A stretch of DNA of 52,630 nt from Coriobacteriia bacterium. Its GTDB lineage: Bacteria > Actinomycetota > Coriobacteriia > Anaerosomatales > SLCP01. The stretch spans positions 1 through 52,630 of the forward strand of contig JACUUN010000006.1 in assembly GCA_014859265.1 (NCBI GenBank), written 5' to 3'. The first letter of the stretch is position 1; every line of letters begins with the position of its first letter. The notes below the pieces were generated by a model. That model had not been told where the DNA came from and made no database searches. It was given only the letters and a program-made list of their open reading frames with translations. Both the position numbers and the translations under genes were made by a program. This document shows positions 30,437 to 33,181 of this stretch, piece after piece.

Positions 30437-31120
30437 TTATCCGGATCCGGTGGAGAAGCGAGCGTGATCAGTCCCGGAGACGGAATGGGACAGTACGAGA
30501 AGCCTGCCCCGGTCGACACGCACGATGGCGGGTGTCTCGAGGACCACATTGCTCAGACCACGGCTGGCGAGCGCACCGAGCGTCGCACTCTCGAGCGGAT
30601 AGCGCGCTCCGCTGCACGAGACGAGGGCCTTGTCGTCCAGAGCGAGGAGGGAGAAGATCGCGCCAGGCCCTGACAGGGTCATCGAGCATCGCCCCTCGGC
30701 GTCGAGGATCCAGCCCGCCATGTCCGGATCGACCAGATCGATGGTGAGCTCTGTGTGCCTGAACACGCTGCCGATCGCGGAGAGCGTGTGATCGAGGCGT
30801 GCCGACCATGCGGCAGTGACGGTCGCGTGGCCCACATCGAGGTCACGTACCGCCTCAAGGGCAAGATCGAGATCTGTGACGTCCTTCTCGGCAGGTGATC
30901 GTCTCAGCTGGGCGCCCGAGGCCTTCACCTGCTCAAGTACGTCGGAACCGATCGAATCGAAATCGCCCACGAGCAAGTCGGGGACGCGTCCGTGCGAGAG
31001 GCACACTCCCCCACCGGCGTCAGCGGCTATGACCAGTCCGCGGTGGGCGGTTATGAGTTGTCGGTAGAACACATCTGCGTCCGCTTGTGGTGCCGCACAG
31101 ACGACGAGCGCGACGTTCAT
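30437..31120 (-). CDS. thiN: thiamine pyrophosphokinase
   Basis: Transfers pyrophosphate from ATP to thiamine to form TPP. Family marks are ADAGGGVCLSHGRVPDLLVGDFDSI and KDVTDLDLAL in the N-terminal catalytic half, and ARLDHTLSAIG. The frame is open to 31195, but ATG 31120 (227 aa) overlaps the thiT stop (ATGA) and starts at the conserved region. With thiT and the TPP riboswitch it forms a thiamine uptake-and-activation operon. Confidence 0.92.
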   Translation of the reverse strand: MNVALVVCAAPQADADVFYRQLITAHRGLVIAADAGGGVCLSHGRVPDLLVGDFDSIGSDVLEQVKASGAQLRRSPAEKDVTDLDLALEAVRDLDVGHATVTAAWSARLDHTLSAIGSVFRHTELTIDLVDPDMAGWILDAEGRCSMTLSGPGAIFSLLALDDKALVSCSGARYPLESATLGALASRGLSNVVLETPAIVRVDRGRLLVLSHSVSGTDHARFSTGSG

Positions 31121-31695
31121 GCCGACGCGTCTTTGTCGGGTACCGGAAGAATACCTGCCAGTGCGGGAACGACCACGGCCGCAGCTGCGAAACATGCAAC
31201 CGCCGAGACCGGCACATACAGGTTGTAGAGCGCCGAGTAGAGCCAGATCGGCTGCCCGGCTGGTGCGAACTCTCCGAAGAAGACCATCCCGGAAACGAAG
31301 TGAGCGACGTAGCGTCCAGTGGCTCCGAGCGTGATGCCTGCGGCCATCAGAAACGCGATCCGACGTGACGCCCGGTCCCGCAGGGCCGGTATCAATGCTG
31401 CAGACACCACGCCAGCCAGGCCGACCAGCAGATACGCCACGGGGTAGTCGAGTATCGGTTGCACCCAGTGTACGGGTGGGTAAGGATCCACCATGAGATC
31501 GACCAGGCCATAGAGGCCGCCCGCGACAAGACCAGGCAGCAGGCCCCGACGGAAGGCTAGAACGAAGAGGGGCAGCATCCCCAGTGAGACACTACCACCT
31601 TGCGGCATCCTCCAGACGGTGAACATGCTCAACACGGCTGCAAGAGCAATCGTCAGAGCGATCTCGAGGAGAAGTCTGGTGCGTCGTTCCTTCAT
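31117..31695 (-). CDS. thiT: ECF thiamine transporter substrate-binding subunit ThiT
   Basis: 192 aa, about six membrane helices. ThiT marks: GGSVSLGMLPLFVLAFRRG, DPYPPVHWVQPILDYPVAY and GRYVAHFVSG. The S component captures thiamine and works with the shared energising module EcfAA'T, not encoded in this window. ATG 31695 has GGAGG 7 nt upstream and removes ten upstream residues. A TPP riboswitch precedes it. Confidence 0.94.
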   Translation of the reverse strand: MKERRTRLLLEIALTIALAAVLSMFTVWRMPQGGSVSLGMLPLFVLAFRRGLLPGLVAGGLYGLVDLMVDPYPPVHWVQPILDYPVAYLLVGLAGVVSAALIPALRDRASRRIAFLMAAGITLGATGRYVAHFVSGMVFFGEFAPAGQPIWLYSALYNLYVPVSAVACFAAAAVVVPALAGILPVPDKDASA

Positions 31696-31767
31696 GACGT
31701 GCCTCCGTTCGGCATCGGCGGTCACCGTACGGGAGCAACGTTACGACATAGCCACGTGCGCGCCATG

Positions 31768-31860
31768 ACCGTCATGCGCGCCCCGCATTACCGGGGCCGT
31801 CCTCTCGGTCGCGGTCACAAGACCGCCTCTCAGCCGCTCTCCAGCAGCTCCCGATACGGT
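31768..31860 (-). ncRNA. TPP riboswitch (THI element)
   Basis: About 93 nt on the minus strand, 73 nt before thiT. Closing helix P1 is ACCGT (31856-31860) with ACGGT (31768-31772). P2 is TCGG/CCGA, and P3 GCTGCT/AGCGGC is followed by the diagnostic TGAGA (GCTGAGA at 31828-31834). An extra hairpin GCGGTC-TTGT-GACCGC follows, then P5 GCCCCG/CGGGGC around GTAATG and a GCGC. The usual P4 pairing is not obvious. A strong alternative hairpin, GCGCGCATGAC with GTCATGGCGCGC, overlaps the 3' P1 strand and could be the expression switch. Downstream thiT-thiN fits. Confidence 0.85.
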
Positions 31861-31917
31861 TCGATTGTCATACGACTCTGGCACACATGGCACTCGACCG
31901 CAATGCGGCGGCTTGCA

Positions 31918-33081
31918 TCATGGCCGGGCGAACTGCTCTCCGAGTGCCCGGTATACGGCCCTCGCGATGGTGTCGCTCCAGGTCGGATCACGGAATGCCG
32001 CGACATCTTCCCGGGAATCAAGTGCGCCTAACCGGACACGGAGAGTCGGGGCCGAAGCCGCCGCGGCCACCGGGTCGGATACGAGCAGAGCACGGCTCAC
32101 CCTGCGCTCCTGTTCCGCGAGTATCCCGACGAGGACCACGGCGAGCTCATCAGACGCCTGGACCTGCGGCGGCAGCAGCGTGCCTTCTCCGGGGACGAGG
32201 ACGCCGAGGCCAACCGGTGACTCCAGTACAACGTCCAGCCCGATTGCAGCGGTCACGAGCGGTGTGGTCTCGGCGGCTCTCTGGGCGCGGGTTGCAAGGG
32301 ACACGTCAGCCTCCGTGACCGACCGGGTGATGACCACCCGTGCGCCTGACGCTTCAAGCAGCGAACGCAGACGTCGAGCAACTTCCATAGCAGGGTCCAC
32401 GTCAGAAGCCTGCGGCGGCTCAGGATCGATGACGAAGACCGTGCCCTGAAGAGCGAAGGGCAGGAGCGCTGTCGAGGCGCTGCCATCCGAGGCGATGCGG
32501 ACACGGACGACGTCAGACGTCCTGACGATTGCGCCCGCAGCGGGAATCGTCTCGAGCACGGTGTCGCTCGGCTGGTCCGAGTCGACGGCCTCGATCTTCA
32601 CAACCAGTCCGCGCTGCTCGAGTTGGGCGCGCGCAACCTTGATTCCCTGACCCACGACATCGGGCATCACGAACTCTTCTGTTCCTGCCGAGACGACCAG
32701 GGCGACCGTACCCCCTCGGGACAACCTCGCACCTTCCGAGGGGTTCTGTGCGAGCACTGTCCCTTCGGGCTGGACGTCGAATCGGCGCTCGACCGTTGAG
32801 ACGCCCAGGCCCGCCTGGGCGAGACGAGCACGGGCGACACCTTCGGGCAGTCCTGTGATGTCTGGAACGAGGATTCCGATACCCGAGACGTACCAGGTGC
32901 CCACGGCGAGCGCGAGCGCGAGCACTGCAGTCAAGCCGAGTATCCCCGCCAACAGCGAACGCGGGACAAGAGGCCGCCTGCGCGGCCGTTCGCGGTCGAC
33001 CAGCAGACCGGATGGGGCCTCCGCCGACTCGGCGGGAGCGTCATTTTCGATCTTGGACGGTTCTTGTTCGGTCTTTTCCAT
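31918..33081 (-). CDS. PASTA protein with degenerate amidase domain
   Basis: 387 aa. A charged cytoplasmic N-terminus, one membrane helix (42-64), two PASTA repeats (about 70-133 and 136-198; muropeptide-binding modules), then a domain at 213-384 with the pattern of Amidase_3 (MurNAc-L-Ala amidase): VFVIDP, VARRLRSLLEASGARVVITR, SLATRAQRA, and a C-terminal LGALDSREDVAAFRDP. All zinc and catalytic positions look lost: DPGHGG reads DPEPPQ, SIHxN reads AIGLD, and the ELGF glutamate is Arg. Probably a peptidoglycan-sensing pseudoenzyme. A TACACT -10 box lies 7 nt before ATG 33081, so the mRNA may be leaderless. Confidence 0.8.
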   Translation of the reverse strand: MEKTEQEPSKIENDAPAESAEAPSGLLVDRERPRRRPLVPRSLLAGILGLTAVLALALAVGTWYVSGIGILVPDITGLPEGVARARLAQAGLGVSTVERRFDVQPEGTVLAQNPSEGARLSRGGTVALVVSAGTEEFVMPDVVGQGIKVARAQLEQRGLVVKIEAVDSDQPSDTVLETIPAAGAIVRTSDVVRVRIASDGSASTALLPFALQGTVFVIDPEPPQASDVDPAMEVARRLRSLLEASGARVVITRSVTEADVSLATRAQRAAETTPLVTAAIGLDVVLESPVGLGVLVPGEGTLLPPQVQASDELAVVLVGILAEQERRVSRALLVSDPVAAAASAPTLRVRLGALDSREDVAAFRDPTWSDTIARAVYRALGEQFARP

Positions 33082-33181
33082 AATCATCAGTGTAGTATGT
33101 GACGTCGTCTTGCGGGACGGCATGCCACTCGCTATCGTGCTAGCCTGTTCGTCCGAGTGCTCGGAGAGGAGCGTTGCACGT

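Follow-up and report, generated by a model that had tools for sequence, protein, structure and literature searches.

The window analysed here, a stretch of 52,630 nucleotides on one contig of a Coriobacteriia bacterium of the order Anaerosomatales, carries a gene for a membrane protein with two PASTA repeats and a degenerate amidase domain, called the pseudo-amidase below. Its features are listed in Table 1. The original prediction had the position of the gene right and left the strand unstated; it is the minus strand. Of the frames that open with ATG, the longest begins at 33123. A start at the ATG at 33081 is likelier, because the orthologues of the same genus (loci L002 and L003) begin there.

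The order of the genes around it is metK-priA-def-fmt-rsmB-glpX, a divergent gene of an FmdB-type zinc ribbon, the pseudo-amidase, thiT-thiN, a GAF-HD gene, Asp23 and fakA. Judged on the named loci that are long enough, there are few exceptions to this neighbourhood; L054, for example, is without thiT-thiN and L041 has no GAF-HD gene there. The overlapping genes thiT (a thiamine transporter, Thia_YuaJ) and thiN (thiamin pyrophosphokinase) lie at 30437-31725 on the minus strand and represent ordinary thiamine salvage. They are downstream of a divergent candidate TPP riboswitch (31757-31864, minus strand), which is a full-length match below threshold (29.3 bits against a gathering threshold of 54.3, E = 0.0005); no Rfam match at the gathering threshold was found in eight related loci. 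The place of this candidate between the pseudo-amidase and thiT points to separate transcription of the thiamine genes, and co-transcription of the pseudo-amidase with them is thus unlikely.

Table 1. Position and basis of the features of the pseudo-amidase gene in the window
Feature	Position	Strand	Basis
PASTA pseudo-amidase CDS, 387 aa and stop	31918..33081	minus	translation; same ATG in orthologues L002 and L003
Predicted cytoplasmic tail, residues 1-40, basic motif RERPRRRPLVPR at its end	32962..33081	minus	sequence
Single transmembrane helix, residues 41-66	32884..32961	minus	AlphaFold helix 12-37 of the fragment from residue 30; hydrophobic
PASTA repeat 1	32689..32868	minus	Pfam PF03793, 52.6 bits
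PASTA repeat 2	32491..32670	minus	Pfam PF03793, 46.5 bits
Pseudo-amidase domain, residues 206-387, Amidase_3 fold	31921..32466	minus	Pfam PF01520, AlphaFold, VIA-align
DPEP, vestige of DPGH (Asp-Pro kept, Gly-His gone)	32416..32427	minus	alignment
GLDV replacing (S/R)IH(A)(N/D), second zinc His gone	32230..32241	minus	alignment
VRLGA replacing VELGF, catalytic Glu to Arg	32023..32037	minus	alignment

Domain architecture and fold

The two PASTA repeats score above the curated Pfam cut-off (88.5 bits in total, E = 2.8e-25). The Amidase_3 match at residues 231-380 reaches 34 bits against a cut-off of 27 (E = 4e-8); it covers profile positions 26-172 and leaves the first 25 positions unmatched. 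Both matches are well above chance. No Pfam match to a protein kinase domain was found in the protein, and the NCBIfam model PknB_PASTA_kin covers only residues 24-199, which are the transmembrane and PASTA part; its 82 bits there stay far under the cut-off of 450. The membrane anchor, the two repeats and the absence of a kinase domain, all proposed originally, are thereby borne out. How is the protein placed in the membrane? The basic motif RERPRRRPLVPR, which is kept among the relatives while the remainder of the tail is variable, precedes the transmembrane helix, so by the positive-inside rule the short tail is predicted to lie inside the cell and the PASTA repeats and the pseudo-amidase domain outside.

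The fold of the C-terminal domain was predicted by AlphaFold from an alignment of 35 sequences. The model has a pLDDT of 88.3 over residues 30-387, and the model of the C-terminal domain a pLDDT of 92.5 and a pTM of 0.90. Its best match in the PDB by VIA-align is the amidase Rv3717 (Z 20.9, rmsd 2.4, 173 residues aligned), followed by Ami1, CwlD, AmiA/B/C, LytH and CwlV, all with Z of at least 18.7, while unrelated folds reach a Z of about 12. Foldseek is concordant with VIA-align on the amidase fold. The original prediction had asked for such a structural comparison with Amidase_3 and named a different fold for residues 213-384 as the outcome that would speak against it; the fold is that of Amidase_3.

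Loss of the catalytic site

Is there anything left of the active site in this domain? The sequences aligned at this site were 35 members of the order (the one in the window included), 10 from other families of the class, and 20 active PASTA-type amidases. None of the 45 relatives has either of the zinc histidines or the catalytic glutamate, whereas all 20 active homologues aligned alongside have all three. The first metal histidine is proline in 30 of the 35 order members, serine, alanine, leucine or glycine in the remaining five, and some other residue in the 10 distant members. At the position of the second, aspartate is found in 21 of the 35 and histidine never; at that of the catalytic glutamate, arginine is the commonest residue in the order and glutamate does not occur. 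The metal-site glutamate before the first helix, placed in its column by the alignment, is not conserved either (T, A, G, E, D, V, S, Q or N), with glutamate in 5 of the 45. The pseudo-amidase thus lacks the two zinc histidines, the catalytic glutamate and the metal-site glutamate that define a zinc N-acetylmuramoyl-L-alanine amidase. The loss of DPGHGG (here DPEP), SIHxN (here GLDV) and VELGF (here VRLGA) had been read correctly from the single sequence, and the suggestion to look for conservation of the dead sites in relatives is answered by these counts.

The change goes further than the residues themselves. Between the DP motif of the first strand and the first helix, 43 of the 45 relatives have a loop of 18-20 residues and the remaining two have loops of 25 and 31, whereas the loop has 49 residues in every one of the 20 active PASTA-type amidases compared. 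This indicates that the loop of the first zinc ligand was shortened by about 30 residues, which is beyond mere mutation. Could the domain have remained an enzyme by moving its active site or by changing its chemistry? In favour of this, it has several invariant residues that are acidic or basic (D219, D229, R237, D336, R348, D359, D365 and D370). However, no invariant histidine or cysteine was found elsewhere among the conserved columns of the family, the loop at the metal site has become shorter, and in the other families of the class not even the DP motif is the same. Catalysis from residues at other positions, which the original prediction had named as a possible objection, was rejected for want of such a histidine or cysteine, and we consider a surviving enzyme of any kind very improbable. 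Judged from its sequence, the Amidase_3 domain has lost all catalytic residues and catalysis is excluded.

Active PASTA-amidases, descent and selection

The combination of PASTA repeats with an amidase domain and without a kinase had been called uncommon, which is not borne out here. The same genome encodes two more PASTA-Amidase_3 proteins, on contigs C229 and C250, which are active in the sense that the catalytic residues are present in their sequences, and a protein with two PASTA repeats and an Amidase_3 domain with catalytic residues occurs in another class of Actinomycetota (L071/L104). Among these bacteria, then, joining PASTA to an amidase is nothing unusual, and the novelty lies in the dead version alone. 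The active proteins share with the pseudo-amidase an N-terminal membrane or lipoprotein-like segment, then PASTA, then a C-terminal Amidase_3 domain. They differ in keeping DPGHQ, RIHxD/N, VExGF and the long metal loop, and in their genomic places; those on C229 and C250 have one PASTA repeat each. Orthology by place with the active PASTA-amidases of other classes was considered and rejected, as the neighbourhoods differ and a downstream M23 gene is common only to L071/L081 (G363:C44). At that locus, in another Actinomycetota class, a lipoprotein-like, active-looking protein with two PASTA repeats and Amidase_3 is followed directly by an M23 coiled-coil peptidase. On contig C226 of the window's genome (G000:C226:26609-26731), an open frame of 63 aa resembles only the C-terminal part of an active Amidase_3 domain (VEYGFMSN) and is apparently a remnant.

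How widely is the dead version kept? Cultivated Anaerosomatales are described as Gram-positive rods that are neither motile nor spore-forming (PMC9686372). Each of the 61 order genomes sampled matches the query, some of them through other PASTA proteins only; counted from the match table, 55 of the 61 carry the pseudo-amidase, one of these matched only to residue 273. Of the six without a full match, one is cut by a contig end; among the other five, the weak matches in G040 and G054 are active PASTA-amidases. Outside the order, families f91, f92 and f93 of the class carry the pseudo-amidase in the same genomic place, and in families f17-f19 PASTA-repeat matches were found but no pseudo-amidase. 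In an unrooted tree the pseudo-domains form one clade with a support of 100/99, which indicates, as far as such a tree shows, that the loss of activity is old and happened once. A profile of the pseudo-domain scores 33-49 bits against PASTA-amidases of the DPGHQ type and at most 27 bits against canonical DPGHGG amidases of the class. Parentage from the DPGHQ type is not settled by the tree, because the pseudo clade stands on its own long branch.

A loss of all catalytic residues is what a decaying pseudogene of a former PASTA-amidase would also show. But no internal stop interrupts the frame in any of the 55 matching genomes of the order, the dead domain has a dN/dS of 0.06-0.19 and the PASTA part one of 0.07-0.11 (four pairs, with dS near saturation in three), and the clade is single and ancient. 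Together with the synteny, these data refute a pseudogene and a chance open reading frame alike. Purifying selection maintains the dead domain throughout this deep-branching coriobacterial group. In one genome (G026:C40), a second open reading frame of 232 aa (L026, 2765-3460) lies just downstream of the pseudo-amidase and repeats about the last 120 residues of the pseudo-domain identically; either a local duplication or an artefact of the assembly may account for it.

Possible roles and comparison with known systems

Then why is a dead amidase retained? One clue may come from the adjoining gene. Outside the window's family, 26 named loci can be read on their downstream side; in 24 of them the gene that directly follows the pseudo-amidase encodes an M23 peptidase with a PcsB-type coiled coil, and in sequence the metal and catalytic residues of this peptidase are intact. 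In the window's family the locus has no M23 gene (the nearest homologue, on another contig, C243, is 49% identical), and hence no fixed partnership with M23 needs to be assumed. In f91 and f93 (loci L087, L094 and L095), thiT directly follows the pseudo-amidase with no M23 gene between. The lack of the neighbour in the window's family would suit a passive wall anchor or structural receptor, a protein which tethers the membrane to peptidoglycan or binds muropeptides and controls no hydrolase, as there is no obligatory partner gene. PASTA and amidase domains are both wall-binding folds, and inward signalling is not obvious with a tail that is short and, except for its basic motif, variable. A mere anchor, however, leaves the recurrent M23 neighbour unexplained, and the strongly conserved polar residues D219, D229, D336, R348, D359, D365 and D370 suggest a specific surface. 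We regard passive anchoring as possible, but on the unlikely side.

Since catalysis is excluded by the sequence and two wall-binding folds are predicted outside the membrane, we prefer to see in it a protein that regulates a hydrolase or acts as its scaffold. The pseudo-amidase would be a non-cutting, peptidoglycan-bound protein that positions or switches a wall hydrolase, like CwlM and EnvC in principle; by our analysis this is somewhat better than an even guess. Such a single-pass membrane protein would display its two PASTA repeats and the dead Amidase_3 domain outside the cell. The repeats may keep the protein at nascent or septal peptidoglycan. The dead domain may offer a surface that binds stem peptide, glycan or protein, and through it a real wall hydrolase would be positioned or switched. 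Two kinds of candidate come into question as partner: the PcsB-like M23 peptidase, whose gene adjoins that of the pseudo-amidase in most relatives, and the pair of active PASTA-amidases that this genome encodes. The neighbourhood of most relatives makes an M23 endopeptidase at least as good a candidate as an amidase. The ligand of the dead domain could also be something other than peptidoglycan or a hydrolase. A more specific version, which we hold tentatively and think a little less probable than the passive anchor, is a class-specific wall sensor: pseudo-amidase and PASTA repeats would recognise nascent or uncrosslinked peptidoglycan and allosterically license the PcsB-like M23 peptidase.

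Dead wall hydrolases turned regulators are known in few cases only, CwlM and EnvC. The pseudo-amidase is predicted to be extracellular, is linked to PASTA repeats, and is retained across one order and also in further families of a class that has been little studied. The active PASTA-amidases alongside it are natural controls, and the intact endopeptidase adjoining it in most relatives outside the window's family makes possible a concrete test of whether it regulates the peptidase.

No description of a PASTA pseudo-amidase was found in the open-access literature. The PASTA kinases (PknB/PrkC/Stk1) resemble it in the transmembrane and PASTA part, where their model gives its sub-cut-off match. 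Unlike them it has no kinase domain, and the PASTA kinase of this genome is a separate protein, encoded on contig C69 beside FHA-, PP2C- and RodA-PBP-like genes (named by sequence inspection; the PASTA repeats of the kinase were identified with Pfam).

CwlM is the mycobacterial degenerate amidase homologue, which regulates or stimulates MurA and is phosphorylated by PknB (PMC4946905). It is likewise an Amidase_3 relative without the zinc-coordinating residues, and its essential role is regulatory. Might the pseudo-amidase also be a substrate of a PASTA kinase and regulate an enzyme of peptidoglycan synthesis? Besides the precedent of CwlM, the presence of a PASTA kinase in this genome, next to PP2C-like and RodA-PBP-like genes, is in accordance with that. 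But CwlM is cytoplasmic and has no transmembrane segment; the pseudo-amidase has a helix at residues 41-66 after its basic motif, PASTA repeats, and an amidase domain predicted outside the cell behind that helix, and no conserved Ser/Thr site was seen in its variable tail. We think CwlM-like control of precursor synthesis improbable.

Partners controlling Amidase_3 enzymes are also known, GerS for CwlD and ActH for LytH (PMC8496864). EnvC, a hydrolase without catalytic residues, activates amidases (PMC4946905). With EnvC/NlpD, the LytM-type amidase activators, the pseudo-amidase shares a proposed regulatory role and, with EnvC, a dead wall-hydrolase fold. The difference is that here the dead domain is an amidase instead of M23, with either an intact M23 peptidase or an amidase as candidate partner. 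If the wall-sensor reading is true, it turns EnvC-AmiB around, as there the dead domain is of the M23 type and the enzyme that it licenses is an amidase.
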